IMG/VR virus record: IMGVR_UViG_3300046006_002184
Coordinates: 1-22,756 of that record
DNA from: a virus
Direction: 5' to 3' (one strand)
Length of the DNA: 22,756 bases
Made by a program: the position numbers and the translations under genes. Below are positions 7,137 through 22,069 of the stretch, in pieces (the stretch's first letter is position 1; every line of letters begins with the position of its first letter). The notes beneath the pieces are model-generated. The model was not told where the DNA came from, ran no database searches, and worked only from the letters and a program-made list of their open reading frames with translations.

Positions 7137-8177
7137 ATGTCTTTCACAAAGCTTGATCCAACCGATTTCGTAGTATCCTCAGATTCAGTTACTGCACCAG
7201 CTTGGAGTACAAACGCACCAACATTAACATCATTTTATACTCTTTCAGGTAATGCGACTGGTAGTTATTACGTAGACGTATATCAAACCGCCTCTACTGA
7301 TAGCGCAGCAGCAGTACAATTCTCTATTGCTTACGGTCACATCGACGGAACTGGTTCAGTGCCTTTAAATAGTTTGGTACCTCAGAATACGCCTAGTAGA
7401 ATCACTTACGGTCAATATAGAAATCTTATTTACGGAGACGCTGAGTCTGCTGTAAACTTTGGAACTGGCAATACCTCTTCTTTAGATCTTATTGCAATTC
7501 CTATAGATAGAAATAGATACAAGGGAAATTTATTTCCAGGTACTTTTAATTTAATTCTAAAAAATGGTAGTGATTCTTTAAGATTGACTGATAACTCTAA
7601 CGACGTATCTACGGTTACTTACCTAGATTGTGGAAGAGCTTTTGATATTATTTCTGGTTCTAATGGCACTGCAGCAAGTTTAACGGTTACTCCTCAAGGA
7701 AATCCAACCAAAGGTTACACTAACTCCGGTTCTTACGGTTTATTTTTACCAGACGTTGGATTGATTATCTTGAATCCAAAAGCATTAGGAGCACCAGTAG
7801 CAAGCGGAGGTTTAAATGTAACATGGTCAACTCTTACCACAGTAAATGGTTTGAATAACGCTAAGATGTTTAGTTTAATTAGTGGCAGCGGCGCTTCAAG
7901 CGTTGGATTTACATTAAATTCTCAAGAAACAATATCTTCTGATTATGTGTTTGTAAGAATTAAAAATGGTGAGTATAATTACACTTCTAATCCTTCATTT
8001 ATATCTGGATCTGGTAATTTAGTTTATTCTAACTTTATCAATAGTCCTCAAACATATATGACAACTGTGGGCATGTATAACAATAACAACGAGCTTTTAG
8101 CCGTTGCAAAGTTATCAAAACCTTTAGTTAAAGATTTCACCAAAGAAGCATTAGTTAGAGTAAAATTAGACTGGTAG
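7137..8177 (+). CDS. Virion structural protein with a C-terminal module reused at 21242-21550
   Basis: A 346-residue protein with probable all-beta content. The middle (about 115-225) contains L-I-A-I-P-I-D-R-N-R-Y-K-G, a Pro-Gly-Thr-Phe turn and a later G-L-F-L-P-D-V-G-L-I-I-L-N-P segment. The C-terminal module (about 272-346) has the core KNGEYNYTSNPSF, then TTVGMYNNNNELLAVAKLSK and a closing R-V-K-L-D-W. The same core, order and ending occur in the 102-residue protein encoded at 21242. No hydrolase or lyase motif is seen. The gene lies 10 bases after its neighbour, and its stop is followed three bases later by the next ATG, so these genes are probably co-expressed. The structural role is inferred from context and composition; it could be a tail, neck or fibre-base component. 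Confidence 0.55.
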   Translation: MSFTKLDPTDFVVSSDSVTAPAWSTNAPTLTSFYTLSGNATGSYYVDVYQTASTDSAAAVQFSIAYGHIDGTGSVPLNSLVPQNTPSRITYGQYRNLIYGDAESAVNFGTGNTSSLDLIAIPIDRNRYKGNLFPGTFNLILKNGSDSLRLTDNSNDVSTVTYLDCGRAFDIISGSNGTAASLTVTPQGNPTKGYTNSGSYGLFLPDVGLIILNPKALGAPVASGGLNVTWSTLTTVNGLNNAKMFSLISGSGASSVGFTLNSQETISSDYVFVRIKNGEYNYTSNPSFISGSGNLVYSNFINSPQTYMTTVGMYNNNNELLAVAKLSKPLVKDFTKEALVRVKLDW

Positions 8178-8180
8178 TAA

Positions 8181-9290
8181 ATGAGTATCGCAAAGAATAC
8201 CATACGGTTTTCAGATATAACAACTACCCCAATAAAATTAAAGTATTCTTCATCTTTCGCCAGTTCATCTCTGGCTTCTTATGGAATTACTCAAAATAAA
8301 GGGGTAAATGTACCCACTGTTTTATCTGGTTCTGTACTAAGCCCAAACGTTCAGTATGCGCTTAAGTATAAAACTATACAACAGCTTTACTACAAAGAAT
8401 ACATTTCATCTTCTTTATTAGGAACAGGAAGTGGATACAATCCAAGTCTCCAATCTACAGCTGCATCAGGAAGTTACGATAACGATCTTAGATATTTTCC
8501 TACCGCAAGTGGAGATGAAATAAGATTCTTTGCAATACCTACAAGAACTTTTGGAGAGCAAATTGCTAGAAAAACCTTTACTTGGGAATCTACAAATAAT
8601 AGCACTTACAAAATTATAGACGACGGAAACGGAAATATTGTCGATGCATTCAATAATTACGAACACGTTGGTAATATTTTGTATGCTCAAGGTATTGTAA
8701 CTGTAGTCAATACAAACTATATCCCGGCTTTATCGGATAATCACTTTACTTTTTCCGTTTCTGTAATACCACCAAGCCCTAGTATATCGGTGAGTCCTAG
8801 TTTATCTATTACTCCTAGTGTTACTCCAAGTATTACGCAAACTCCAAGTGTTACGCTAACTCCAACTGTTTCCATAACACCAACAGTTAGTATTTCTAAT
8901 ACACCAGGTTTATCGATATCTTTGACACCTAGTATTACGCCTACTTTCAGTATTACGCCAAGCATAACACTTACACCAAGTAAAACGCCTACTGTATCGA
9001 TTACTCCTAGTGTTACCGTAAGTGTGTCTATATCGCCTAGTCTTCCTTCACTTTACGACTTCTATTTAGCCAACGAGTATAGTTGTGATTTCCCTGGATG
9101 TACTTTAATCAATACCGATGTGTTAGTGGCTATTCCTCAAGGATCCGGATACATTAGCACTCACTACTACTCTGATATTGGTCATACTGGATTTGTATAT
9201 AAGATAACTGAATACAGTACTTACGGAGTAGCAATTATATTAGACATCAGCGTCCATAGCACAAACTGTTCAACTGTATGTTCAGTATAA
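8181..9290 (+). CDS. Fibre-like protein: structural N-terminus, Thr/Ser/Pro repeat stalk, Cys-containing tip module
   Basis: A 369-residue protein in three parts. Residues 1-196 are a folded-looking region with LYYKEYI and, at about 110-180, AIPTRTFGEQIARKTFTW, then D-D-G-N-G-N-I-V and LYAQGIVTVVN. Residues 199-290 are a low-complexity stalk of S-I-T-P-S-V-T-type units. Residues 292-369 are a small module (YDFYLANEYSC, a second Cys four to five residues later, GFVYKITEY, then two closing Cys) whose layout recurs twice in the next protein. This is the architecture of a phage fibre or adhesin: virion-binding head, extended stalk and small terminal domain. Four Cys in the tip module could make disulphides or bind metal. 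It starts three bases after the upstream stop; no Shine-Dalgarno is visible. Host-surface binding by the tip is inference. Confidence 0.65.
   Translation: MSIAKNTIRFSDITTTPIKLKYSSSFASSSLASYGITQNKGVNVPTVLSGSVLSPNVQYALKYKTIQQLYYKEYISSSLLGTGSGYNPSLQSTAASGSYDNDLRYFPTASGDEIRFFAIPTRTFGEQIARKTFTWESTNNSTYKIIDDGNGNIVDAFNNYEHVGNILYAQGIVTVVNTNYIPALSDNHFTFSVSVIPPSPSISVSPSLSITPSVTPSITQTPSVTLTPTVSITPTVSISNTPGLSISLTPSITPTFSITPSITLTPSKTPTVSITPSVTVSVSISPSLPSLYDFYLANEYSCDFPGCTLINTDVLVAIPQGSGYISTHYYSDIGHTGFVYKITEYSTYGVAIILDISVHSTNCSTVCSV
8775..9050 (+). repeat. Thr/Ser/Pro peptide-repeat block in the 369-residue fibre protein
   Basis: This block encodes about 92 residues of imperfect six- and twelve-residue units around S-I-T-P-S-V-T. 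It is rich in Thr, Ser and Pro with Val, Ile and Leu at the remaining positions, and has almost no charged residues. At the DNA level the units are degenerate (ACT, ACG and ACA for Thr; CCT and CCA for Pro), so the coding repeat is much stronger than the nucleotide repeat. Confidence 0.9.
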
Positions 9291-9297
9291 GAATAAA

Positions 9298-9306
9298 AAT
9301 ATTTAT
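9298..9306 (+). promoter_or_regulatory. AATATTTAT intergenic motif, copy 2
   Basis: AATATTTAT lies eight bases after the stop of the 369-residue gene and 12 bases before the ATG at 9319. With the two following bases (AA) the complement reads TTATAAATATT, which contains the exact T4-type late-promoter octamer TATAAATA, but pointing away from the downstream gene. The 28-base gap is otherwise A-rich and contains AAAAAGAGATAG just before ATG. Confidence 0.38.
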
Positions 9307-9318
9307 AAAAAGAGATAG

Positions 9319-11922
9319 ATGCAAATATTAATAACATTAACGGACTATGGTAACTCTGTCGGACCCTTCAATATCCGATACAATACCTCGTTCACCGGCG
9401 CCGGCACTTTGACCGCTACCAGTGTTCCGTTAGATGTTTTAATTGCTGGAAAGGAAGTTTATGTAGACGATTTTAGTTACTACGTAGAATTAGAGAATTT
9501 AGACCCTTACGGAAGCGGCAATAGAGTCAGATACAATTTTGTTGTTCCTAGTTATAGCCTCACTCCTAGCGTTACAGTTACTCCAAGCATAACTTTAACT
9601 CCAAGCATAACTTTAACTCCTAGTGTGACATTGACTCCTAGCGTTACTAAAACTCCTAGTGTATCATTAACTCCTACGGTTTCAATTACTCCAAGCGTTA
9701 CATTAACACCGAGTATTACTAGAACTCCCAGTGTAACTCCTACAGTTTCAATTACGCCTAGTGTAACTCTAACTCCGAGTATTACTAGAACTCCTAGTGT
9801 AACTCCTACGGTTTCAATTACTCCAAGTATTACTCTAACGCCAAGTATTACATTGACTCCAAGTACTACACCTACAATTTCAATTACACCTACATTCACT
9901 CTTACTCCAAGCGTTACATTGACTCCGAGCACTACGCCTACGGTTTCAATTACGCCAAGCATAACGTTAACACCTAGTGTAACATTAACGCCTAGTGTAA
10001 CTCCTACAGTTTCTATAACGCCTTCAGTTACTCTTACTCCAAGTATTACTAGAACTCCTAGTGTAACTCCTTCGATAACGTTAACTCCGAGTATGACTCC
10101 GACTGTTACTATCACTGCGACAGTGTCTATAACACCAAGTTTAACTCCTACTATTACAGTGAGTCCTACGGTTAGTATAACGCCTAGCATTACATTAACT
10201 CCAAGTACAACAGCTACTGTTAGTGTAACGCCTAGTGTAACAATAACACCTAGCGTAAGTCAAACTATTAGTATTACGCCTAGTGTATCTATAACTCCAA
10301 GTATTACGCTAACTCCGAGTATGACTCCTACGGTATCAATAACACCTTCTATAACAAGAACGCCTAGTTTAACGCCTACTATTACAGTGAGTCCTACTAT
10401 CAGTATTACGCCTACAGTATCTATAACTCCAAGTATTACGCCTAGCGTAACATTAACTCCGAGTGTAACGCCAACTGTTAGCATTACTCCTAGTATAACA
10501 ATAACGCCTAGTATAACAAGAACACCATCGTTAACTCCTAGTTTATCTGTAACTCCATCAATTACGACTACACAACAAGCTTTAGCTTACTTTACCGATC
10601 TATCTCAGTACTCTACTGCTTTCTTAGCTTGCGCTAATGGCAATCCTACTGTTAATAGATACATGATGCCAGGAGATACGAGTCCAGTTTTAAATCACTA
10701 CGTTTATACGGATACTGGTTTAACGACTACTTATGATGGTGGTACTAACTATCACAAAATGCAAAGAGGCGCTACAGTATGGGCAGTAAAAATTGGAGCT
10801 CTAGGCCAGATCTTAGACTTTGTAGATTGTTCTACTATACCATCGATATCCTTGACTCCTAGCGTCACTCCTTCAGTTTCCATTACGCCTTCTATATCTA
10901 GGACTCCATCTATGACTCCTACTATATCGATTACTCCTACAATCAGTATTACTCCTAGTATCACATTAACCCCTAGTATTACACCAACTCAGATGCCGTT
11001 TAGTTTTGTGAGATCTACATCTACTTATGCTACTACGTATCTCGCTTGTTTGGGCACTATTACCGGAACTACTATTTGGCAAGCCCCAGCTTATGGAGCG
11101 GTTCCTACTGTAGGAGCTCGATTATATACGGATAACACCCTAACCACTTACTGGAATCCCGCTACTACTAGTGGATATTATTTATTTCAAAGAAGTCTTG
11201 ATAAATACGCAGTAACTGTAGACGCCTATGGATATATTAATAATGTAGTTTATGACTGTTCGGGAGTTCCTTCTGTATCTTTAACTCCTAGTGTGACTCC
11301 TCCGGTATCTCTTACGCCTTCTTTGACACCGCCTGTTACTCCTACATATAATAGTTACTATGTTGAAGCTCATAATTGTGGATTAGGATGCGAATACGGA
11401 TCACAGTTCGACACTTACGCCAAGTTCCCTAGTAATTATTCTGCTGTAGTCGGAAAATTCTACTTGCAAGCTAGCGGATTCCAAGATTATTCGTACAAAA
11501 TTATAAATTCAGTTGATCCATCATTAGGTGGAACATTGTGTAGTACAACGCCTTACGATACCTGTTACGCAGCTTGTGGCACAACTCCTCCAGTATCTCT
11601 TACGCCTTCTGTGACGCCACCTACCACTCCTTGTCCTAGCGTATCTGTTTCGACACCAGTTAATTATGATATATTCATAATGTATGAATATGGATGCCTT
11701 GACGGTGATTGTGTTGATAATGGGATTGAAGCATATGGCGCGTTTACACCAGGCTTTAGTCCAAATCCTACAAGATATTATAGACCAACTTCTGGTACAG
11801 GATTTGCTTATAAAATTGGAAGTATATTCCAATCTGGTTCACCTGCAATACTAATGAATTCTACTTCTTATGTATCTTGTCCTACAGCAGCACAATGTAC
11901 TGCTCCACCAGCACCAGAATAA
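9319..11922 (+). CDS. Large mucin-like fibre protein: Thr/Ser/Pro repeats linking four small modules
   Basis: An 867-residue fibre-like protein. Residues 1-76 form an N-terminal domain without Cys, probably for attachment. Residues 80-417 are a very long Thr/Ser/Pro repeat. Module A1 (about 420-505) and module A2 (559-648) are related: both carry Y-x-T-x-x-L-A-C, later (V/L)-Y-T-D-x-x-L-T-T and a Q-R before a closing D-C-S. They are joined by a second repeat (508-557). Module B1 (677-754) and module B2 (783 to about 863) match the terminal module of the preceding 369-residue protein: Tyr-rich start, two early Cys, Y-K-I in the middle and two late Cys. Short S-L-T-P linkers join these as well. 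The stalk is about two-thirds Ser, Thr and Pro, uncharged apart from occasional Arg or Lys, and resembles an O-glycosylated mucin stalk. The glycosyltransferase cassette follows downstream. No trimer-forming collagen repeat, peptidase or lyase signature is visible. Fibre identity is inferred from architecture and position. Confidence 0.65.
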   Translation: MQILITLTDYGNSVGPFNIRYNTSFTGAGTLTATSVPLDVLIAGKEVYVDDFSYYVELENLDPYGSGNRVRYNFVVPSYSLTPSVTVTPSITLTPSITLTPSVTLTPSVTKTPSVSLTPTVSITPSVTLTPSITRTPSVTPTVSITPSVTLTPSITRTPSVTPTVSITPSITLTPSITLTPSTTPTISITPTFTLTPSVTLTPSTTPTVSITPSITLTPSVTLTPSVTPTVSITPSVTLTPSITRTPSVTPSITLTPSMTPTVTITATVSITPSLTPTITVSPTVSITPSITLTPSTTATVSVTPSVTITPSVSQTISITPSVSITPSITLTPSMTPTVSITPSITRTPSLTPTITVSPTISITPTVSITPSITPSVTLTPSVTPTVSITPSITITPSITRTPSLTPSLSVTPSITTTQQALAYFTDLSQYSTAFLACANGNPTVNRYMMPGDTSPVLNHYVYTDTGLTTTYDGGTNYHKMQRGATVWAVKIGALGQILDFVDCSTIPSISLTPSVTPSVSITPSISRTPSMTPTISITPTISITPSITLTPSITPTQMPFSFVRSTSTYATTYLACLGTITGTTIWQAPAYGAVPTVGARLYTDNTLTTYWNPATTSGYYLFQRSLDKYAVTVDAYGYINNVVYDCSGVPSVSLTPSVTPPVSLTPSLTPPVTPTYNSYYVEAHNCGLGCEYGSQFDTYAKFPSNYSAVVGKFYLQASGFQDYSYKIINSVDPSLGGTLCSTTPYDTCYAACGTTPPVSLTPSVTPPTTPCPSVSVSTPVNYDIFIMYEYGCLDGDCVDNGIEAYGAFTPGFSPNPTRYYRPTSGTGFAYKIGSIFQSGSPAILMNSTSYVSCPTAAQCTAPPAPE
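9556..10569 (+). repeat. Main Thr/Ser/Pro peptide-repeat tract of the 867-residue fibre
   Basis: About 338 codons of units such as S-I-T-L-T-P and S-V-T-P-T-V, giving a T-P-(S/T) step roughly every six residues. Ser in the T-P-S triplet is nearly always AGT or AGC, whereas Ser in T-V-S is TCA, TCT or AGT. This patterned codon choice suggests growth by duplication of larger units. The opposite strand stays open for long stretches only because of this repeat. Confidence 0.92.
9709..9840 (+). repeat. Tandem 66-bp near-identical DNA repeat inside the fibre stalk
   Basis: Copy one is 9709-9774 and copy two 9775-9840, in frame (22 codons each). They differ at 7 of 66 bases, with one amino-acid change (Val to Ile). 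A related partial copy starts at 10039. This is the clearest nucleotide-level duplication in the tract and a probable site of slippage or recombination. Confidence 0.8.
10840..10989 (+). repeat. Second Thr/Ser/Pro repeat block, between modules A1 and A2
   Basis: Fifty codons of S-I-T-P/S-V-T-P-type units joining the two A modules of the 867-residue fibre. Shorter linkers of the same composition lie at about 11263-11346 (between A2 and B1) and 11581-11664 (between B1 and B2). Confidence 0.85.
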
Positions 11923-12159: not shown

Positions 12160-13416
12160 ATGGCCAAAATATTTGTTTCGATCGCTTCTTATAGAGATCC
12201 CGAATTACTTCCCACACTTGAAAATTTATTAGAGAACGCAAAGTACCCTCAAGACCTTGTCATTTGTATAGGGTGGCAACATTCAAAAGAAGACAAATGG
12301 GACACTCTAAAGAAATACAAAAAGGACCCACGATTTAAGATTATTGATATCGACTATAAGGAGTCCAAAGGCGTTTGTTGGGCAAGAAGCGAAATACAAA
12401 AGCTTTACACTGACGAAGACTATTACCTTCAATTAGATTCTCATCACAGATTTACAAAAGATTGGGACGTACAATTAAAAGATCTATTGCACTATCTTAT
12501 GTGTAAAGGTCATGAGAAGCCTTTACTATCAGCTTACATTCCCGGATACTTCCCTGAAAAAGATCCTGAAAATAGGGTTAACGAAGTTTGGGGTTTGAAC
12601 ATAGATAGATTTATGCCCGCAGGCGCAATATTCTTAAGACCTCATCACATAGATAAATTTCAAGAATTAAAAGAACCCTTCTTAACTAGATTCATATCCG
12701 CTCACTTTATTTTTACAATTGGAAAATTTGCAAAAGAAGTGCCTTACGATCCTAATTTATACTTTCATGGAGAAGAGAGTTCTTTAGCAGCTAGAGCTTA
12801 CACTCATGGATACGATTTATTTGCTCCACACAAAGTGATTGTATGGCACGAATACACGAGAGAGGGAAAGAAAAGACATTGGGACGACAGTCAAGATTGG
12901 AAACAAAAAGACGACGACTCATACGCAAGATTTAGAAAACTATTTGGTATGGATCCGGGTTGCACGCCTTGTCAAAGAAAAGCATTAGCGCCTTATGGAT
13001 TCGGACCAGCTAGATCTTTAACAGATTTTGAAAAATATGCAGGTTTAAAATTCGCAACAAGACAAATACACAGAGAGACTTTAAAAAACAGTCTTCCTCC
13101 AATAAAATCAGATTACGAATCAGGTCTTGCTTCTAGCCAAAAATATTGCATAGACATTTATAAAGGCTCTTTAACAGAAACGGATTACGATTCTTTTGTT
13201 GTTGCATTTTTGGATGAGAACGGAGAAGACGTATACCGACAAGATTGTAATAAGGGAGAAATTCAAAGTATGATGAATCTTGAGGCTAATAATAAGTTCA
13301 TTCATATATGGAGAAATTTTGAAGCAGTAGAAAGACCAGTATGTTGGAGAGTTTGGCCTCATTCAGAGTCTAAAGGCTGGATGGAAAGAATAGAACAAAA
13401 AATATCATATGAATAA
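12160..13416 (+). CDS. Glycosyltransferase, GlcNAc-transferase (PF11397-type) family, copy 1
   Basis: Predicted sugar transferase of 418 residues. It opens with IFVSIASYRDPELLPTL (residues 4-20), the hallmark start of the GlcNAc family that includes the polypeptide alpha-GlcNAc-transferase of Dictyostelium Skp1 and related mucin-type enzymes. Further family features are W-A-R before the sugar site, D93-S-H-H-R-F as the DxD-like nucleotide-sugar/metal motif, Y-F-H-G-E-E (E205/E206, a probable catalytic acidic pair) and H-G-Y-D-L-F followed by V-W-H. Residues 1 to about 300 are the catalytic domain; about 325-418 form an extra C-terminal domain shared with the next gene. No signal or membrane segment is seen, so it should act in the cytoplasm. 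It overlaps the next gene by 8 bases. Donor and acceptor are not shown by the sequence; GlcNAc onto Ser/Thr or Pro of the fibre is a hypothesis. Confidence 0.8.
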   Translation: MAKIFVSIASYRDPELLPTLENLLENAKYPQDLVICIGWQHSKEDKWDTLKKYKKDPRFKIIDIDYKESKGVCWARSEIQKLYTDEDYYLQLDSHHRFTKDWDVQLKDLLHYLMCKGHEKPLLSAYIPGYFPEKDPENRVNEVWGLNIDRFMPAGAIFLRPHHIDKFQELKEPFLTRFISAHFIFTIGKFAKEVPYDPNLYFHGEESSLAARAYTHGYDLFAPHKVIVWHEYTREGKKRHWDDSQDWKQKDDDSYARFRKLFGMDPGCTPCQRKALAPYGFGPARSLTDFEKYAGLKFATRQIHRETLKNSLPPIKSDYESGLASSQKYCIDIYKGSLTETDYDSFVVAFLDENGEDVYRQDCNKGEIQSMMNLEANNKFIHIWRNFEAVERPVCWRVWPHSESKGWMERIEQKISYE

Positions 13417-14680
13417 TAAGTTACAGACCATACTCGTACATTTGCCAGCTTATAGGGACCCAGAATTGGTACCAACTATTAAGAACGCACTAGAAAATGC
13501 AAAGTATCCAAAGAGAATACACTTTGGTATTTGTAGACAATTCTGTGAGACTGACGAATTTGACAATCTTGATGAGTTTAGAAAAGATTCAAGATTTCAT
13601 ATAATGGATGTTCCTTACAAAGAAGCAAAAGGTTTACCGTGGGCAAGAGCTCAAATCAACGAAACGCTTTTGACCAACCAAGATTATATTTTACAGTTAG
13701 ATTCTCATCATAGATTTGAAAAGGATTGGGACGTAACTCTAATAGACATGCATAGTGAATTAGAAGCTGATGGGTACAAACCAATCTTAGGGGCTTATTT
13801 ACCTTTGTACAATCCGTTTAACGATCCAGAAGGACGCACAATGGAGCCATGGCAGCAGACCTTTGCTTGCTTCTATCCTCATGGAACCATATTCATTAGA
13901 CCAGGATTATTAACTGGTTGGCAAGACATGACCAAACCGCCAATGAGTAGATTTTTATCAGGTCATTTTTGTTTTGCAAGAGCTGAATGGGCCAAAGAAA
14001 TTAGACACGATCCGGATATCTACTTTAGTGGAGAGGAATTAAACTTAACAGTTAGATCTTACACTCATGGATACGATTTATTCCACCCACACAAATTAGT
14101 TGTTTGGCATTCTACAATGAGAGAAGAAAGAGCAGGTATGTTGAAGTGGGACGACGATTCTAAATTGGGAGTGAATTGGTTTAACAAACAAGAGTATGCT
14201 AGAAAGAAGATCAGAGTCTTATTGGGAACTGAAGAGGATCCTAACATAGATTTAACTGGTTACGATTTAGGAACGGTAAGAAGTTTAAAAGACTACGAGA
14301 AATACGCAGGCTTTCACTTCAAAAGAAAGGCTGTTCAAAAATACACTTTGGACAATAAGTATCCACCGAATCCATTGATAGAAGACGACGAGTTATGGGA
14401 GCAATCTTTTATGAAGTCATTCTACTATTTAGTTAATATAGAAAAACATAATTTACCGGGCACAGATTACAAACACATACTTGTTGCGTTCGACGACGAA
14501 AACGGAAAGTCTATCAATAATAAGTACATAACAGGACTTGATCTAGAAAACTTTATGAACAAAGGCGAGAGAATACATTACGAAGAATTTTTCTTAACCG
14601 ACACAGAACCAAAGAGAGTTGTTTATTGGGCTTACAGCGAACAAAGAGGTTGGTGTGAAAGAGTAGAACACGCAATATAA
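13409..14680 (+). CDS. Glycosyltransferase, GlcNAc-transferase (PF11397-type) family, copy 2
   Basis: A 423-residue paralogue of the upstream gene, in the same order of motifs: L-P-A-Y-R-D-P-E-L at 12-20, G-L-P-W-A-R, D98-S-H-H-R-F-E-K-D-W-D-V, Y-F-S-G-E-E, T-H-G-Y-D-L-F-H-P-H-K, and R-S-L-K-D-Y-E-K-Y-A-G before the C-terminal accessory domain (about 335-423, ending in G-W-C-E-R-V-E). The two copies are clearly diverged outside the motifs. The replacement of S-I-A-S-Y by H-L-P-A-Y and the altered loops after the catalytic site suggest different donors, acceptors or positions in a glycan. The start ATG lies inside the end of the previous gene (8-base overlap) and only one base separates its stop from the dehydratase start. 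Family membership is firm; specificity is unknown. Confidence 0.8.
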   Translation: MNNKLQTILVHLPAYRDPELVPTIKNALENAKYPKRIHFGICRQFCETDEFDNLDEFRKDSRFHIMDVPYKEAKGLPWARAQINETLLTNQDYILQLDSHHRFEKDWDVTLIDMHSELEADGYKPILGAYLPLYNPFNDPEGRTMEPWQQTFACFYPHGTIFIRPGLLTGWQDMTKPPMSRFLSGHFCFARAEWAKEIRHDPDIYFSGEELNLTVRSYTHGYDLFHPHKLVVWHSTMREERAGMLKWDDDSKLGVNWFNKQEYARKKIRVLLGTEEDPNIDLTGYDLGTVRSLKDYEKYAGFHFKRKAVQKYTLDNKYPPNPLIEDDELWEQSFMKSFYYLVNIEKHNLPGTDYKHILVAFDDENGKSINNKYITGLDLENFMNKGERIHYEEFFLTDTEPKRVVYWAYSEQRGWCERVEHAI

Positions 14681-14681
14681 G

Positions 14682-15650
14682 ATGAAAAAAAGAGCATTAA
14701 TTACCGGCATAACGGGTCAAGATGGGTCATTTTTAGCAGAATTGCTTCTTTCTAAAGGATACGAAGTGTTTGGATCTATACGTAGACATTCAATAGACGA
14801 AGTGATTAATTCAAGAATTGGTCACATAATAAAAGACGTTAATTTAGAATACGCGGACCTTACGGATTTAGATTCTATGCAAAAGATAGTTGACAAATCA
14901 AAACCAGACGAAGTATATAATCTCGCGTCTCAATCGGATGTTAAGGTTAGTTACGAGAATCCAATATACACAGCAAATACTATCGCAATTGGCACACTAA
15001 ATTTATTGGAAGCCATAAGGCATCATTCTACAAATAGTAATGTGTATCAGGCTTGTACTTCTGAAATGTTTGGAGGTTCTATAGATGAAGACGGTTATCA
15101 GAGAGAAACCACTCCATTTAAACCTGCGAATCCTTACGCATGCGCCAAAGCATTTTCTTTTAATGTTGGAGTTAATTATAGAGTGGCTTACAACATGTAT
15201 ATCAGTAATGGTATTTTATTTAATCATGAATCTTCTAGACGAGGAGAAAATTTTGTTACAACTAAAGTGGTTAAGGCCGCAGTTAAAATACACAAAGGAC
15301 TTCAAGCGGATTTAAAATTGGGCACCCTAGATTCGTATAGAGATTGGGGTCACGCTAAAGATTATGTTAAGTCAATGCATTTAATTTTACAACAAGACAA
15401 AGCAGACGACTATGTATGTGCTACTGGCAAGGTTCATAGTATAAAGGACCTTTGCGAATATGTTTTCAGAAGATTGGGAATGGACTATAGAGATTATGTT
15501 AAATTAGACCCAAACTTTGTGAGACCTCAAGAAACTAAACATTTTAAAGGCGATCACAGCAAATTAACAAGAGATACTGGTTGGATACCAGAATTTAGTT
15601 TTGAAGATACGATGGACGAAATGATTGATTTTTACTTAAACAAAATATAA
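14682..15650 (+). CDS. gmd: GDP-mannose 4,6-dehydratase
   Basis: Converts GDP-D-mannose to GDP-4-keto-6-deoxy-D-mannose, the branch point to GDP-fucose, GDP-rhamnose and GDP-perosamine. This is an extended short-chain dehydrogenase of 322 residues, close to the usual 320-370. Visible features: NADP-binding G-I-T-G-Q-D-G-S at 9-16, A-S-Q-S-D-V near 88, catalytic T126-S127-E128, the active-site pair Y152-A-C-A-K156, and NGILFNHESSRRGENFVT, which is strongly GMD-specific. Near the C-terminus, R-P-Q-E-T and the final T-G-W-x-P-x-x-S-F also match. The stop overlaps the next ATG by one base. No downstream reductase, epimerase or aminotransferase (fcl, rmd or per type) is seen in this window, so the product must be completed by host enzymes, by genes elsewhere on the phage, or used as the keto sugar. 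Confidence 0.93.
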   Translation: MKKRALITGITGQDGSFLAELLLSKGYEVFGSIRRHSIDEVINSRIGHIIKDVNLEYADLTDLDSMQKIVDKSKPDEVYNLASQSDVKVSYENPIYTANTIAIGTLNLLEAIRHHSTNSNVYQACTSEMFGGSIDEDGYQRETTPFKPANPYACAKAFSFNVGVNYRVAYNMYISNGILFNHESSRRGENFVTTKVVKAAVKIHKGLQADLKLGTLDSYRDWGHAKDYVKSMHLILQQDKADDYVCATGKVHSIKDLCEYVFRRLGMDYRDYVKLDPNFVRPQETKHFKGDHSKLTRDTGWIPEFSFEDTMDEMIDFYLNKI

Positions 15651-16390
15651 TGATAAATTTATTAAGGCTTTACGATCCTATTTTACAGAAAGTTAGAATA
15701 GGCAATTTTTGGGATGGAGGTTACGTAGTAGCACTACAATCCTTAGGCAGAAGTTCGGCTCTATTTAGTTACGGAGTTGGTAACGATATCTCTTTTGAAA
15801 AAGCCTACGTAGATGCAACAGGCAGAATGGCATACTGTTTCGATCACACTATAGATGATATCGCAATAGAAGATAATTACAAACCTAATTTAATTTATAC
15901 AAAAGAAGGTTTGTCAGGAGTTAAGGCCGAAAACATGAATAACTTCTTAGAACATTACAAAGAAAGAAATGCTAGCGATAGGGTGTTATTCAAATGCGAT
16001 GCCGAAGGAGCAGAGTACGAATTCATTTTAAATACCGATATTGCAGAAATGGCCAAGATTACTACAGGATTAATCTTCGAATTCCATTATTTGTCTAATC
16101 CAGTTAGAAGAGAGGAATTTTTCCAATCTATGGCAAAATTAAACGAACACTACTTGCTTTGTCATGTACACGGTAATAATTACGCAAATAATTTTGTGTA
16201 TGAAGAAGTACTTCCAAACAATTACATAAAACCGTATTCTATACCTGACGTTATTGAATTTACTTTTATTAATAAGGATTTAGTACCTTATACAATGGTG
16301 GACAATAAAGTATATCCGTGCAGTTACTTGGATAGAAGAAACAATTTATCAAAAGACGATTTAGACTTAAGCTTTTTAAATTTATTATAA
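15650..16390 (+). CDS. FkbM-type SAM-dependent methyltransferase
   Basis: Predicted O-methyltransferase of 246 residues, probably methylating a sugar hydroxyl. The segment R-I-G-N-F-W-D-G-G-Y-V-V (about 16-28) and S-Y-G-V-G-N-D-I-S-F-E (about 40-50) form the SAM-binding start, and D117-A-E-G-A-E-Y-E matches the D-(V/A)-E-G-x-E motif of FkbM proteins. E-F-H-Y near 145 and H-G-N-N-Y near 175 are plausible substrate- or metal-side residues. No membrane segment is visible. It sits between the GDP-mannose dehydratase and a glycosyltransferase, with one-base overlap upstream and one base downstream, so methylation of a deoxy sugar or of the finished glycan is the likely role. The precise acceptor is unknown. 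The methyltransferase fold is well supported, subfamily less so. Confidence 0.7.
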   Translation: MINLLRLYDPILQKVRIGNFWDGGYVVALQSLGRSSALFSYGVGNDISFEKAYVDATGRMAYCFDHTIDDIAIEDNYKPNLIYTKEGLSGVKAENMNNFLEHYKERNASDRVLFKCDAEGAEYEFILNTDIAEMAKITTGLIFEFHYLSNPVRREEFFQSMAKLNEHYLLCHVHGNNYANNFVYEEVLPNNYIKPYSIPDVIEFTFINKDLVPYTMVDNKVYPCSYLDRRNNLSKDDLDLSFLNLL

Positions 16391-16391
16391 G

Positions 16392-17249
16392 ATGATTTAT
16401 ATATCACTAACAACGGTTCCTAATAGAATGGAATTTGAAAGATCCGCAAAACTAAACCTACTTTCTTTATTAAATCAAAATACAGACAAAGATTATAAGG
16501 TTCTTTATAATGTACCTTTATTGTACAAAGAAAAGAACGAAGAAATTATAATTCCTGAGTGGGTATTAGAATTACAAAAAGAAAACGATAAATTGGTTTT
16601 AAATAGAGGAGAAGATTATGGTCCTGTTACAAAAATAGTTGGAGGTGTTTTATACACAAACGAACCAGACGATGTATTGATTGTGTGCGATGACGACCAC
16701 GAGTATCACGAAGACATGTTAGAATACCACGTAAAGAAATTAGACGAGTATCCTAATTGCGCTATAGCTTTTAGAGGAGATAGACTCCATGAAAAAAGAG
16801 AGTGGGAAGAGGATGGAATTAAGAAGCACATATTCTTACACATAGGAGACAACTTTCCAGTTAAACAAGACATGAATTTGGCCATTACAGGTCATTGGCA
16901 TTCCGTATCGTATAAAAGATCTTTCTTTGACGATAGCTTTTTAGATAAGGATTTTTTAATGAACTTCCACTGGTCAGACGATATTATTATGGCTTATTAC
17001 GTTGCTAAAAAAGGATACGAAATTAAGTGCGTAGCGTGGGACAAAGAAACAGATTTTAGATTAGTTAATCATTTTGGTAGACCATGTAATAGTTTTCCTT
17101 TAAAGAATACTTTACCATTCGAAAGTAGCGGATGCCACGTTTTAAGAAATAGAACGGGAGAACATGTTAACGATCAAGCCACTTATCCAGTAGAATGGGT
17201 TAGTTTCATATTGGATTACTACGCAAAAATACACGAAAAAAATGACTAA
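16392..17249 (+). CDS. GT-A-type glycosyltransferase
   Basis: A 285-residue predicted glycosyltransferase. The N-terminal M-I-Y-I-S-L-T-T-V-P-N-R-M start is the first beta strand and loop of a small GT-A fold. D75-Y-G-P-V-T-K81 is the G-P-x-x-K feature of several bacterial and viral GT-A enzymes, and V-C-D100-D-D102-H supplies the DxD nucleotide-sugar/metal motif. Residues about 195-210 (W-S-D-D-I-I-M-A-Y-Y-V-A-K-K-G-Y-E) resemble the acceptor-side acidic pair and the following helix. No signal peptide is seen; it is probably cytosolic. The gene ends with an 8-base overlap with the carbamoyltransferase start (ATG at 17242), strong evidence of coupled translation. It could act before the carbamoyltransferase in building one glycan; the sugar donor cannot be read from sequence. 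Confidence 0.7.
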   Translation: MIYISLTTVPNRMEFERSAKLNLLSLLNQNTDKDYKVLYNVPLLYKEKNEEIIIPEWVLELQKENDKLVLNRGEDYGPVTKIVGGVLYTNEPDDVLIVCDDDHEYHEDMLEYHVKKLDEYPNCAIAFRGDRLHEKREWEEDGIKKHIFLHIGDNFPVKQDMNLAITGHWHSVSYKRSFFDDSFLDKDFLMNFHWSDDIIMAYYVAKKGYEIKCVAWDKETDFRLVNHFGRPCNSFPLKNTLPFESSGCHVLRNRTGEHVNDQATYPVEWVSFILDYYAKIHEKND

Positions 17250-18894
17250 TATAGGATTTTACGGATCTCATAATTCGGCTTTCGCAATAGAAAAAGACGG
17301 AGAAATTCTCTGTGTATTGGAATTGGAAAGATTTGTAAATTACAAAAATGGAGGAATAGCGCAATACAAAACTGTAAAGGATATCCACTTAACAATGGAA
17401 AATGTTGTTTCGTGGATTTTAAAAACTTACAACATAGAAGAGTTCGATAATTGTATGGTTAATTCTGTGACAGTTAATATGCACGGTAAAGCATATAATT
17501 TACACCACATGATACCTCACAAAAATACAGTTTTAATAAATCACCACGAAGGTCATGCTGCAGGAGCTTTTTACCAATCAGATTTTCAAGATGCATTGAT
17601 ATTTTCTTTTGATGGTGGAGGAAATGATGGTAAATTTAATATATACAAAGCGAATAGAAAAGAGGGCGTAACTTTGTTAGAAGCAGTTTCTAATCCTAAA
17701 CACAATAACGATCATGTTAAATACGATTTAGGTTTTCCTTATGCAACCTTTGGAGATTTTTTCGCAGACATAAATCAAGAGCCTATCGTAGATGGTAACC
17801 TAGTTTACCCTGGAAAAATAATGGGATTGTGTTCTTATGGTAACGTGCACGAAGATTGGATTCCTTATTTTATGGACTACTATAAAGAGAATGCGCAAAG
17901 CGGAGAATACGAAGCAGAAATTCAAAGATTGATCGGCGATAGAATCGGAGTTACATTTAATAAACACGATAGATTATCCGGTCAAACTGCTTACGATATT
18001 GCGGCTACAGCGCAAAGAGCTTTCGAAGAATGCTTCTTTGAAGTAGCGAATCCTTATTTAGAACAATACAAAGATCTACCAATTTGTATAGCTGGAGGAT
18101 GCGGATTGAATATATTACTGAACACAAGAATAAAACAAGAATTGAATAGAGAAGTATTTGTGGGTCCGAATCCTAACGATTGTGGATTAGCTTTAGGTTT
18201 ATTGTTAGCACATACAAAGCCAGAGCAAGCGGTAGATATTACCTATAAAGGAATTCCAATATTAGATTACGGAGCAATTACAGAATACTTCAATACAGGT
18301 TGCGCTAAACTAGTCAAGAAAATAGTAAAAGAAAATACAGAAGACTATCCTTCTGACTCTATTACTAACATTGATGAAGTTATAGACGATTTAATAAACG
18401 GATCTATCATGGGTGTAGTTAGGGGAAATTCGGAACATGGACCAAGAGCCTTGGGAAATAGAAGTATCATATGTGATCCTACAATTCCAGAAATGAAAGA
18501 CATTCTAAACGCTAAAGTAAAACATAGAGAGTGGTATAGACCTTTTTCACCTATGGTTAGATTAGAAGACGTTTCTACTTACTTTGAATGGGAAGGAGAA
18601 TCAAGACACATGAGTTTCTGTCCAAAAGTAAAAGAAGAGTGGAAAGATAAATTAGTGTCCATTACTCACGTAGATGGTACAGCGAGAGTGCAAACAGTTA
18701 CAAGAGAACAAAACGCTTGGATATACGACGTTCTTACTAAGATGCACGAAAAAACAGGCGTTGGTGTTTTATTGAACACTTCTTTTAACGTAAATAGAAA
18801 ACCAATACTTTCTACCTTAAAGGACGCTTTTAAAATATTTAACGAATCTGAAATGGACAGGTTGATAATAGAAGATTACTACTTTATAAAATAA
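17242..18894 (+). CDS. NodU/CmcH-type O-carbamoyltransferase
   Basis: Transfers a carbamoyl group from carbamoyl phosphate, through carbamoyl-adenylate, to a hydroxyl, typically on a sugar or antibiotic. The 550 residues contain both expected domains: an ASKHA/TsaD-like N-terminal domain and the C-terminal carbamoyltransferase domain. Markers are H101-H-E-G-H105 (metal-binding His pair), F-S-F-D124-G-G-G-N-D-G, I-M-G-L-C-S-Y-G, A-G-G-C-G-L-N (284-290), and the diagnostic R394-G-x-S-E-H-G-P-R-A-L-G-N-R. The end, L-N-T-S-F-N-V-N-R-K-P-I, also fits. It looks complete and intact. Neighbouring dehydratase, methyl- and glycosyltransferases suggest a decorated deoxy-sugar. The alternative, a phage carbamoyltransferase acting on 5-hydroxymethylcytosine in DNA, cannot be excluded, but no DNA-modification partner is visible here. 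Confidence 0.88.
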   Translation: MTNIGFYGSHNSAFAIEKDGEILCVLELERFVNYKNGGIAQYKTVKDIHLTMENVVSWILKTYNIEEFDNCMVNSVTVNMHGKAYNLHHMIPHKNTVLINHHEGHAAGAFYQSDFQDALIFSFDGGGNDGKFNIYKANRKEGVTLLEAVSNPKHNNDHVKYDLGFPYATFGDFFADINQEPIVDGNLVYPGKIMGLCSYGNVHEDWIPYFMDYYKENAQSGEYEAEIQRLIGDRIGVTFNKHDRLSGQTAYDIAATAQRAFEECFFEVANPYLEQYKDLPICIAGGCGLNILLNTRIKQELNREVFVGPNPNDCGLALGLLLAHTKPEQAVDITYKGIPILDYGAITEYFNTGCAKLVKKIVKENTEDYPSDSITNIDEVIDDLINGSIMGVVRGNSEHGPRALGNRSIICDPTIPEMKDILNAKVKHREWYRPFSPMVRLEDVSTYFEWEGESRHMSFCPKVKEEWKDKLVSITHVDGTARVQTVTREQNAWIYDVLTKMHEKTGVGVLLNTSFNVNRKPILSTLKDAFKIFNESEMDRLIIEDYYFIK

Positions 18895-18904
18895 AAACAA
18901 AATA

Positions 18905-21229
18905 ATGCCCCATTCTACCAATATATTTAAACAAGAAATAGTAGACTTTGTAAAAAATAAGTTTAATAAGACAAGCACAGTTTTAGACATCGGTGCAGGA
19001 TGCGGTACTTATGCCGATTTTTTTAGAAATCATTTTTACGGGATGGACGGTGTTGAAATATTCGAACCATACGTAGATCAGTTTGCGCTAAGAGAAAAAT
19101 ACAAAAACTTATTCGTACAAGACGCAACTACTTTTGATTTTAATTACTACGATTTAATTATAGTAGGAGACATACTAGAACACATAGAAGAATCAGAAGG
19201 CATTAAATTTATAGAACGCATATACGAAAAGTGTAACGATCTAATAATAGGAATTCCATTCAATTCAGAACAGGGCATTTATGAAGATAACAAATACGAA
19301 ATACACCTACAACCTAATTTAACTAACGAAAGTTTTTTAGAGAAGTACAAAGGATTTAGACCACTGTGTATTAGATACGATTACGGAATCTACATTAAAG
19401 ATAATCAATCAAATAAAAAATTAGATATCGTTTTAGATTCTAGAAAATTAGATTTTGAAAATATAAAACAACAATTGGAAAATCAATATCAAGATTGTAA
19501 AGTAATAAGCTATCTAAAAGATGAAACACAAAAATTAAAAAAGTCTAAATTAACTGTAGTAACAGGATTGTGGGATATCGGTAGACCTGGTAGATCTTTC
19601 GAACACTATATAGAGTGTTTTCAAAAATTATTGGAAACAGACTGCAATATGTACATTCATATCTCCGCAAAACACGAACATTTGGTTTGGGAAAAAAGAG
19701 ATAAATCTAACACCGTTGTTAAAATATGGGAGTTAGAAGACATGAAACAAATGTACGATTCTTTTTGGGATAAAACTCAACAGATACGTAACGATCCAGC
19801 TTGGTACAATATGACAGGAGAAAATGGTTGGTTGAAAAATTCTCCTCAAGCCGTTTTAGAGTGGTACAATCCAATAGTAATGTCCAAGTTCTCAATGTTA
19901 CACAACGTTACGGTATGGGATCCATTCGAATCAGAATATTTCATGTGGTTGGATGCAGGTATTACTAATACTGTTTACGAAAAATATTTTACGGAACACA
20001 AGATACTAGATAAGATTATTCCTCACTTCGATCCATTCTTATTCTTAAGTTACCCTTACGAAGCTAACGACGAAATACACGGATTTGATTTTAATGCAAT
20101 TAATCGTTATGCTGGAGAAACTGTTAAATACGTTTGTAGAGGCGGTCTTTTTGGTGGAACAAGAGAAAGCATCATATCTGGAAACTCGATGTATTGGCAC
20201 TTACTAAATAATACATTACGTGATGGATACATGGGTACAGAAGAGAGCATCTTTAGTATTATGGCTTATCAAGATCCTCATACGTTTAAAAGATACTCTT
20301 TGGATTCTAATGGATTGATCGTTAAATTTGCGCAGAACTTATTAGAGGATAATATACAATTAGAACCGGTACCAGAGGGCAAAGTTGCACCTATCGTAAA
20401 GAAGGTTAATACTTCTAATTTAAAGATGTCAATCTATATGTTGACATTTAATTTCCCTAAACAAGTAGAACACACAATACAAACTTGGTTAAAACACGAT
20501 AAGTTTTTAACTCAGACTAGAAATATATTAATAGATAACTCTACTAACGAAGAAGCGAGAATAGCTAATAAAGCGTTATGTGATAAATATAATTTCGAAC
20601 ACATTATCACTAACGAAAATACTGGTATAAACGGCGGTAGAATGAGAGCTGCTCAACACTTTCAAGAATCTGATAGTGATTATTATCTATTCTTAGAAGA
20701 CGATATGGGAATACATGCTCCAGATCAAACCGGATACTGTAGAAATGGATTTAGATTCTATGTTCCTAACTTATACGATACCGCATTAAAAATTATAGAA
20801 GGATCTGATATAGATTTTTTAAAGTTATCGTATACCGAAGTTTACATGGATAATAACATTCAAGTGTCTTGGTATAACGTACCTCAAACAGTAAGATCAG
20901 AGTTTTGGCCCAACTACGATAAATTACCTACTAATGGATTAGACCCTAATTGTCCAAGAACAAAATTTGATTCTATAGAAGTTGTAGATGGAGTTAGTTA
21001 TATAACAGGCGATATCTACTACTGCAATTGGCCAACCATAGCAGGCAAAAAGGGAAATCAAAAGATGTTCTTAGATACTACATGGGCAAGACCTTACGAA
21101 CAAACGTGGATGAGTTATATGTTCCAAGAAACTCAAAAAGGCAATTTAAAACCAGCCATATTGTTGGCGAGTCCAATCAATCATAATAGAATAGAATTCT
21201 ATACACCTGAGGAAAGACGAGAGAACTAA
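18905..21229 (+). CDS. Three-domain fusion: SAM methyltransferase, HtrL/YibB-like domain, GT-A-like glycosyltransferase
   Basis: A 774-residue multidomain enzyme. Residues 1 to about 165 are a class I methyltransferase: V26-L-D-I-G-A-G-C-G34 is motif I and D-I-L-E-H-I-E-E is the post-strand-4 motif. Residues about 216-490 begin L-T-V-V-T-G-L-W-D-I-G-R-P and include Y-F-M-W-L-D350-A-G-I, the pattern of HtrL/YibB-type proteins, a putative glycosyltransferase family seen in polysaccharide loci. Residues about 506-774 start with M-S-I-Y-M-L-T-F-N-F-P, carry E-N-T-G-I-N-G-G-R and L-F-L-E598-D-D600-M, and resemble a GT2-like GT-A domain. The linker regions are short, and a 165-215 charged segment joins parts one and two. 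The gene starts 10 bases after the carbamoyltransferase stop. Fusing methyl and two glycosyl steps suggests substrate channelling. Domain boundaries are approximate and activity is unproven. Confidence 0.68.
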   Translation: MPHSTNIFKQEIVDFVKNKFNKTSTVLDIGAGCGTYADFFRNHFYGMDGVEIFEPYVDQFALREKYKNLFVQDATTFDFNYYDLIIVGDILEHIEESEGIKFIERIYEKCNDLIIGIPFNSEQGIYEDNKYEIHLQPNLTNESFLEKYKGFRPLCIRYDYGIYIKDNQSNKKLDIVLDSRKLDFENIKQQLENQYQDCKVISYLKDETQKLKKSKLTVVTGLWDIGRPGRSFEHYIECFQKLLETDCNMYIHISAKHEHLVWEKRDKSNTVVKIWELEDMKQMYDSFWDKTQQIRNDPAWYNMTGENGWLKNSPQAVLEWYNPIVMSKFSMLHNVTVWDPFESEYFMWLDAGITNTVYEKYFTEHKILDKIIPHFDPFLFLSYPYEANDEIHGFDFNAINRYAGETVKYVCRGGLFGGTRESIISGNSMYWHLLNNTLRDGYMGTEESIFSIMAYQDPHTFKRYSLDSNGLIVKFAQNLLEDNIQLEPVPEGKVAPIVKKVNTSNLKMSIYMLTFNFPKQVEHTIQTWLKHDKFLTQTRNILIDNSTNEEARIANKALCDKYNFEHIITNENTGINGGRMRAAQHFQESDSDYYLFLEDDMGIHAPDQTGYCRNGFRFYVPNLYDTALKIIEGSDIDFLKLSYTEVYMDNNIQVSWYNVPQTVRSEFWPNYDKLPTNGLDPNCPRTKFDSIEVVDGVSYITGDIYYCNWPTIAGKKGNQKMFLDTTWARPYEQTWMSYMFQETQKGNLKPAILLASPINHNRIEFYTPEERREN

Positions 21230-21241: not shown

Positions 21242-21550
21242 ATGGCATACCCTACCTCATACCTACCATTTCGATTAGGATTCTCTGCGGAATCTACAGT
21301 GTACCAAACAGAAGTTAAGTGTCGCGTAAATGAAAACGACTTCAATTACACTCTAAATCCAAGCGCAATTAAGAGCAGTACTACCGGATCTTATATAAAT
21401 GCAGTCACAGGTTCGGAATTCCACCCTTACGCTACAACTGTGGGTTTATACAACGACAAAGAAGAATTGTTGGTTGTGGGTAAATTATCGACTCCGTATC
21501 CGATTCCTTCTAATACCGATATTACCTTCGTCATTCGTTGGGATAGTTAA
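21242..21550 (+). CDS. Stand-alone copy of a virion-protein C-terminal module
   Basis: A 102-residue protein that is largely one module: C-R-V-N-E-N-D-F-N-Y-T-L-N-P, then TTVGLYNDKEELLVVGKLS, and a closing F-V-I-R-W-D-S. The same order occurs in the last 75 residues of the 346-residue virion protein at 7137-8177 (E-Y-N-Y-T-S-N-P; T-T-V-G-M-Y-N-N-N-N-E-L-L-A-V-A-K-L-S; R-V-K-L-D-W). The N-terminal 25 residues (M-A-Y-P-T-S-Y-L-P-F-R-L-G-F) differ and may be a docking peptide. It is most likely a small structural or capping subunit that occupies an equivalent site to the larger protein. It is flanked on both sides by the AATATTTAT motif. The homology call is confident; the role is inferred. Confidence 0.65.
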   Translation: MAYPTSYLPFRLGFSAESTVYQTEVKCRVNENDFNYTLNPSAIKSSTTGSYINAVTGSEFHPYATTVGLYNDKEELLVVGKLSTPYPIPSNTDITFVIRWDS

Positions 21551-21571: not shown

Positions 21572-22069
21572 ATGTCAAATTGGTTTACGTACGATGGTAA
21601 TCACGATCCCATTAATTTTGTAAAACCGCTTACTCAGCTTTCTGATTTTCCAGAGAACGTGGTTGGATTCGTTTACAAAGTCACAAACAATAAGACCGGC
21701 AAATTCTACGTCGGTAAAAAAATCCTTAGAAACGTTTTAACAAAGACCCTAACAAAGAAGGAGATTTCAGAGTGGGTAAAACCAGGACGCGTCCCAAAGA
21801 AAAGAAAGGAGATCAAAGAGAGCAATTGGGCCGACTACTACGGATCTAGTAAGTTGATCATAGACGATATTAAACTTTTTGGTAAAGATATATTCACTAG
21901 AGAAGTATTAAGGCTATGCACCACAAAGAAACAGATGAGTTATTGGGAGACCTATTATCAAATGACCTTAAGAGTTTTAGAGGTGGAAAGCTATAACGAG
22001 AATATAGCAGGCAAATGGTACCGCAGGGACGTCAATCCCATCACACCCGAGCTCGAGGCCGAAGAGTAG
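21572..22069 (+). CDS. GIY-YIG-type endonuclease
   Basis: Predicted small DNA nuclease of 165 residues. The GIY and YIG motifs are present in variant form as F33-V-Y35 and Y46-V-G48 within GFVYKVTNNKTGKFYVGKK. Conserved downstream positions fit as well: an Arg in F-T-R110-E and the catalytic-type Glu in S-Y-W-E126-T-Y. W-A-D-Y-Y-G-S-S (86-93) and the final Y-N-E-N-I-A-G-K-W-Y-R-R are typical of phage GIY-YIG proteins, many of them labelled Seg-like homing enzymes. There is no obvious extra DNA-binding domain beyond the core, so it may be a free-standing homing enzyme or a nuclease in phage DNA metabolism. It is the last gene on the + strand before the terminator, a common place for such insertions. 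The fold call is fairly firm; homing activity is unproven. Confidence 0.75.
   Translation: MSNWFTYDGNHDPINFVKPLTQLSDFPENVVGFVYKVTNNKTGKFYVGKKILRNVLTKTLTKKEISEWVKPGRVPKKRKEIKESNWADYYGSSKLIIDDIKLFGKDIFTREVLRLCTTKKQMSYWETYYQMTLRVLEVESYNENIAGKWYRRDVNPITPELEAEE

Follow-up and report, generated by a model that had tools for sequence, protein, structure and literature searches.

Putative mucin-like tail fibres with linker-matched glycosyltransferases in a myovirus tail region

Glycosylated virion proteins and mucins in described systems

In the mycobacteriophages Che8, Corndog and Myrna (Freeman et al. 2023), phage-encoded glycosyltransferases (GTs) have been reported to modify capsid and tail tube subunits at their C-termini (cited in PMC12363180 and PMC12619734). 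The present analysis concerns two tail-fibre-like genes, F1 (ORF 8181-9290, + strand, 369 aa; ORF, open reading frame) and F2 (ORF 9319-11922, + strand, 867 aa), found within positions 1 to 22,756 of the IMG/VR virus record IMGVR_UViG_3300046006_002184; this whole 22.8-kb stretch, hereafter the window, is metagenomic and contains part of a myovirus tail region. Both genes encode small modules strung on linkers of Thr, Pro and Ser (T-P-S linkers), and both products are probably O-glycosylated, mucin-like adhesion fibres modified by the phage’s own enzymes, which would place the glycan on the linker. With the mycobacteriophages such a system would have in common the action of phage-encoded GTs on virion proteins, shown there and proposed here. 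It differs in its proposed targets, T-P-S or poly-Thr strings that lie inside modular tail fibres, and in its enzymes, which belong to the families PF11397 or phrog_4417, the linker type predicting the enzyme family.

A second described case is the Xanthomonas jumbo phage XacN1, in which at least two glycoproteins were detected by proteomics; the available part of that source does not tie them to the 3,313-aa protein of this phage (PMC5852040). The PF11397 homologue of XacN1, ORF334, adjoins a carbamoyltransferase and lies about 9 kb from the baseplate-adjacent 3,313-aa protein, which has a P-T-P-T stretch near its C-terminus; the tail is unrelated to that of the window, and the GT is not directly beside the linker gene.

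PF11397 is presumably the family that includes the polypeptide O-GlcNAc (GlcNAc, N-acetylglucosamine) transferases of protist mucins, members of which would be expected to transfer GlcNAc to a polypeptide's Thr or hydroxyproline, and we take the mucin GlcNAc transferase of Trypanosoma cruzi to be a PF11397/GT60 member. This UDP-GlcNAc:polypeptide transferase adds alpha-GlcNAc to Thr residues of Thr-rich mucins (PMC3769586). A Thr-rich string together with a polypeptide GlcNAc transferase would be the likeness to the phage system; in T. cruzi the pathway is that of the eukaryotic Golgi and the coat is anchored by glycosylphosphatidylinositol, whereas the phage system would be cytoplasmic. No paper on mucin-like phage fibres was found in the literature searched, the coverage of which was incomplete.

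Linker type and transferase family in homologous tail loci

The 219-aa gene upstream of F1, which is neutral with respect to both linkers and transferases, served as bait in three scans. These returned 171 loci (numbered with the prefix L), which formed 114 clusters at 95% identity, and 77 non-redundant loci with at least 5 kb of downstream sequence were compared. Genes of PF11397 were present in 16 of the 21 loci with T-P-S-type linkers and in none of the 56 others (Fisher 1.5e-12), while phrog_4417, a putative transferase, accompanied all poly-Thr linkers (12/12) and only four of the remaining 65 loci (5e-11). Taken together, any transferase was found in 29 of the 33 loci with linkers, compared to 3/44 of those without. 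The hypothesis was drawn from the first scan, and the clusters seen only in the later scans show the same pattern.

As the loci are related, a tree-aware test is the fair one, and independent pairs were therefore counted on a phylogeny built from two tail genes. When the presence of any GT was set against that of any linker, about 7.4 pairs agreed and 0 disagreed (median p 0.008), and for poly-Thr against phrog_4417 the count was 5.8 to 0 (median p 0.03). The genes are also physically coupled at less than 300 nt, as would be expected of a virion-glycosylating phage, in which the transferase gene would be linked to that of a virion protein: the first PF11397 gene begins 20-266 nt past a linker ORF in 15 of 16 loci, and the phrog_4417 gene 16-38 nt past one in 12 of 13. 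This linker-type-specific pairing is most simply accounted for by an action of the enzymes on the strings.

Transferases in other phage lineages

Homologues of phrog_4417 were found in 74 named phages, whose hosts are mostly lactobacilli, enterococci, staphylococci and lactococci. In many Gram-positive phages (L202-L216) the gene accompanies proteins of the virion region that carry Thr runs, in many cases the major tail protein. In nine of 15 regions, where 1.3 would be expected, the strongest Thr run belonged to one of the two ORFs immediately upstream of phrog_4417; in phiFL1A (L202 4345-5909), for instance, it is in the major tail protein gp50, directly upstream, which ends in TTTTTSTTTTTTSSTTTTTTTQASSK, and gp51 is phrog_4417. 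VPE25, bIL285 and Planchet instead have this run in the fifth ORF downstream, which stands where the major tail protein or a counterpart of it is encoded. Since the poly-Thr/phrog_4417 pairing is seen in these Gram-positive regions, it is not confined to one gene block. Based on an invariant DxD motif and on this context, phrog_4417 is a candidate poly-Thr O-glycosyltransferase.

The same regions bear on the possibility that linker and transferase co-occur merely as one recombined block that spreads as a unit, with no enzyme-substrate relation between them. Adjacent genes do hitchhike, and the phylogenetically independent pairs are few. However, on many branches linker and transferase are gained or lost in agreement, no pair running counter to this, and in the Gram-positive phages the pairing recurs with the major tail protein as another carrier; we consider such passive spread quite improbable.

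Several observations weigh against glycosylation of the strings. The T-P-S class was defined compositionally, and some of its members are better read as poly-Thr or as P-T: its exceptions are, besides L150, L065 and L129, better read as poly-Thr (L129 carries phrog_4417), and L086 and L130, whose P-T linkers are nearly free of Ser. Three clusters with P/T linkers (L086, L130 and L150) have neither enzyme in the available sequence, which in L150 stops inside a linker ORF. Conversely, phrog_4417 occurs without any linker ORF in L052, L060 and L177; either loss of the string from the fibre or a different target of the enzyme could account for these loci. The tree-corrected comparison of T-P-S linkers with PF11397 alone, which is under-powered, gave about 4.4 to 0 (p 0.125), and phrog_4417 has no Pfam or PDB match. 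Finally, among 48 clusters of other phages with PF11397, 29 had no linker ORF within about 10 kb and six had one within 0.5 kb. These clusters refute the idea that every phage PF11397 gene signals a linker gene, and a relaxed search for T/S/P-rich neighbours in the linker-free PF11397 loci found no excess.

The distance of PF11397 from linkers in most clusters of other lineages, together with the location of the window’s glycan genes in a slot of variable content, bounded by the fibre genes and a conserved 102-aa gene, would also suit a different explanation. F1 and F2 would then be ordinary modular fibres with unstructured spacers, and the GTs unrelated hotspot morons modifying host surface polysaccharide (seroconversion, superinfection exclusion); phage glycosyltransferases often target the host surface or DNA. 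Yet unrelated morons would not be expected to follow linker type in their transferase family, nor to keep a spacing of 16-266 nt, nor would both families be expected to be missing from almost every linker-free locus that has this slot, and the poly-Thr pairing in Gram-positive phages is equally unpredicted. We regard this explanation as unlikely, albeit deserving of serious attention.

The broader proposition, for and against which we see about equal weight, is that many tailed phages possess a counterpart of mucin-type O-glycosylation, served by dedicated polypeptide O-glycosyltransferases of PF11397 for T-P-S and of phrog_4417 for poly-Thr strings. Each enzyme would travel with a string-bearing virion gene, for fibres or the major tail protein, to yield a sugar-coated, bead-tipped structure for adhesion or shielding. 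If true, the purpose of Thr-rich strings in many phage tail proteins would be explained, phrog_4417 would gain a function, virion glycosylation would extend from capsid and tail-tube C-termini to fibres, and the letters of a linker would, as a rule, predict the downstream transferase. Glycosylated fibres would matter for host recognition, for host defences and for the way in which immune systems see phages.

As a separate observation, the loci L107, L109 (XacN1), L108 and L110 (RAS14) have a PF11397 GT and a carbamoyltransferase at roughly 9-10 kb from a baseplate-adjacent protein of more than 3,100 aa with a P-T-P-T stretch near its C-terminus.

The T-P-S linkers

The initial annotation had described the modules as joined by T-P-S linkers, and the linker sequences agree. 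The linker of F1 (8766-9050) is followed in F2 by a long linker of 338 aa (9550-10563) and by three shorter ones, between modules A1 and A2 (10834-10989), A2 and B1 (11263-11343, of T-P-S/T-P-P type) and B1 and B2 (11584-11658), all on the + strand. Of 502 linker residues, 342 are Thr, Ser or Pro (250 Thr plus Ser, 92 Pro). In the main linkers, Thr precedes 77 and Ser or Thr follows 83 of the 84 Pro residues; Ser/Thr takes almost every position at -3, -1, +1 and +3 from Pro, with I/V/L or P at even distances. The linker sequence is regular beyond mere composition bias. In the DNA it consists of 18-bp-type tandem repeats. The long linker has Ser/Thr at alternate positions, and the encoded product is a long, repetitive Pro/Thr/Ser-rich region of the kind that defines mucin-like proteins. 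The strings may themselves be functional, a point overlooked in the initial annotation. The linker also contains long ORFs on the minus strand (9552-10190, for example), but these only mirror the repeat and were rejected as genes.

The action of a polypeptide transferase on T. cruzi mucins (PMC3769586) and the glycoproteins of XacN1 (PMC5852040) make glycosylation of such strings plausible. In the mechanism that we propose, the N-terminal head of each fibre (N1 or N2) would fix it to the baseplate, and the beads would be spaced by a long, extended string in which every second residue is Ser or Thr. The A and B beads, capable of forming disulphides, would be located at the outer end and contact the host surface. 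Two PF11397 enzymes, GT1 and GT2, would start or extend a glycan on Thr/Ser of the T-P-S repeats, while the GDP-mannose dehydratase, family-2 GT, methyltransferase, carbamoyltransferase and YibB fusion would make and decorate this glycan. The result would be stiff mucin-like spacers that hold the beads off the virion and may aid adhesion. Beads would be exchanged between fibres and phages by recombination, probably aided by the repetitive linker DNA.

The downstream glycan cassette

The two PF11397 genes begin 237 nt 3' of F2 and are followed by the remainder of a glycan cassette, all on the + strand; the initial annotation had overlooked that glycosyltransferases come next after the fibres. 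GT1 (12160-13416; Pfam 238.6 bits), the candidate linker-modifying (GlcNAc) glycosyltransferase, and GT2 (13409-14680; 183.6 bits) both score above the curated family cut-off of 21; a phmmer search with GT1 found no solved relative. Next come a GDP-mannose 4,6-dehydratase (14682-15650; PF16363, 363.5 bits), an FkbM-like methyltransferase (15650-16390; PF05050, 21.8 bits, slightly below the cut-off of 22.7), a family-2 glycosyltransferase (16392-17249; PF00535, 25.7 bits, cut-off 23.3) and a Nol-like carbamoyltransferase (17242-18894; PF16861 and PF02543; phrog_1601). The last gene (18905-21229) encodes a 774-aa fusion of methyltransferase-like, HtrL/YibB (PF09612, 50.9 bits) and family-2 glycosyltransferase-like parts, of which the first and the third score below their cut-offs.

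Modules A and B

A bead-and-string architecture with two reused module families had been read from the sequence, and both module profiles and linker sequences bear this out. The A modules, A1 (10591-10833) and A2 (10999-11262), carry the anticipated motifs, as YSTAFLAC, YTDTGLTT and DCS in A1 and YATTYLAC, YTDNTLTT and DCS in A2. The B modules, B0 (9054-9287) in F1 and B1 (11344-11583) and B2 (11662-11907) in F2, all on the + strand like the A modules, share the Tyr-rich start and YKI; the four Cys attributed to all three hold for B0 and B2, but B1 has five.

Pairwise scores judged against 500 shuffles gave z=10.6 for A1/A2, 10.4 for B0/B2, 4.7 for B1/B2 and only 2.3 for B0/B1, so that the membership of B1 requires profiles. 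The profile comparison that had been suggested was made with hidden Markov models built solely from modules of other phages, with no window module included, and these recovered A1 (E=3e-31), A2 (4e-23), B1 (1.5e-17), B2 (1e-15) and B0 (2e-10). The A model matched none of the B modules, and the B model hit the A modules only at E>1; homology between A and B was ruled out by the shuffle scores and profile searches. Sequence comparison thus confirms A and B as two mutually unrelated small module families, and the profiles point to a common fold within each. One member per family was modelled with AlphaFold2, confidently in both cases, with a mean pLDDT (predicted local distance difference test) of 96.3 for A1 and 88.7 for B2.

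Neither model had a PDB fold match at E<=0.001, and the modules had no Pfam or credible PDB sequence match; neither sequence nor fold directly matched any receptor-binding or lectin domain already described. The B model has one strong BFVD match, to an uncharacterized phage protein (prob 1.0, template modelling score 0.71, E 1.1e-3). Influenza HA1, which gave the B profile its best PDB hits (E 0.11-0.96 over 34 columns), was rejected as a chance match. A tblastn search of 50,697 phage records with A1, A2 and B2 gave one weak match only, of B2 to an Arthrobacter minor tail protein, and a profile scan of genome contigs with a narrow A alignment found no bacterial relative. The families phrog_21885 and phrog_15511 match module A and a linker-plus-module stretch; their function is unassigned, and no link to glycosylation is given for them. 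Based on terminal position on tail-fibre-like genes and on fast turnover, it is plausible that A and B are putative host receptor-binding modules.

Origin of the modules

Counting near-duplicates, module A was present in 29 and module B in 21 of all loci, on N1 carriers, N2 carriers and others, and B modules were paired with T-P-S and poly-Thr linkers alike. In L008/L009 the F1/F2 position is occupied by one 1524-aa protein with an N1 head, five A modules, two Cys modules of other type and one B. Further Cys-rich module types, many of them singletons in the set, were seen in bead-and-string fibres of L009 (5220-9791, aa 754-918), L014 and L099.

The initial annotation attributed the modules to repeated duplication followed by diversification, and proposed that related contigs be checked for shuffling. 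Tandem duplication is real in L021, which has three module+linker units of 429 bp with 87% matches. In the module trees, however, no window module has another window module as nearest relative, and neither A1/A2 nor B0/B1/B2 form clades of their own. The closest relatives are in L038 for A1 (65% identity), L008 for A2 (58%) and B2 (42%), L014 for B1 (57%, support 96) and L098 for B0 (39%). As the window modules are nearest to those of other phages, the set was mostly assembled by shuffling from old shared subtypes; together with the varied carriers, the trees point to exchange as the dominant process, with occasional tandem duplication. An origin of the modules inside F1/F2 themselves, by duplication in place and later diversification into receptor-binding domains on passive linkers, fits the reality of the module families and the L021 repeats, but hardly a set of mostly exchanged old subtypes, and is very improbable. 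Module shuffling on a shared string would be a simple route to novel tail-tip combinations.

Fibre genes and their place in the tail block

From the left edge of the window the gene order is Baseplate_J, a 1352-aa protein, the 219-aa and 346-aa proteins, F1 and F2. F1 consists of an anchor domain N1 (aa 1-195; 8181-8765, + strand), a linker and B0. N1 is the conserved head of F1-type fibres in related tail loci; its segment cluster has 33 members in 32 loci, and it is found directly 3' of the 346-aa tail gene. F2 is arranged as N2 (aa 1-77; 9319-9549, + strand), the 338-aa linker, A1, A2, B1 and B2, the modules being separated by linkers; in other phages N2 likewise forms the head of fibres and of short proteins (L011, L016, L042, L068, L099). 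Homology of N1 and N2 was unsupported (z 0.1).

The upstream tail genes are syntenic with those of Flavobacterium phage immuto (vB_FspM_immuto), in the same order and with 33-73% identity, whereas the immuto region lacks linkers and either transferase family. Genes beyond the syntenic block are annotated in immuto as tail fibre and tail spike, and this position in the tail gene block of a related isolate suggests that F1 and F2 are tail fibre/receptor-binding genes. They are best explained as accessory fibres on the tail of a large, immuto-related myovirus.

A 102-aa protein (21242-21550), whose homology to the C-terminal end of the 346-aa protein (gene at 7137-8177) is seen via immuto_165 and immuto_166, is encoded at the end of the variable cargo slot in many relatives. 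Directly past this slot, in the window (21572-22069) as in many relatives, is a SegE-type GIY-YIG endonuclease, which could help to mobilise the fibre/glycan block.

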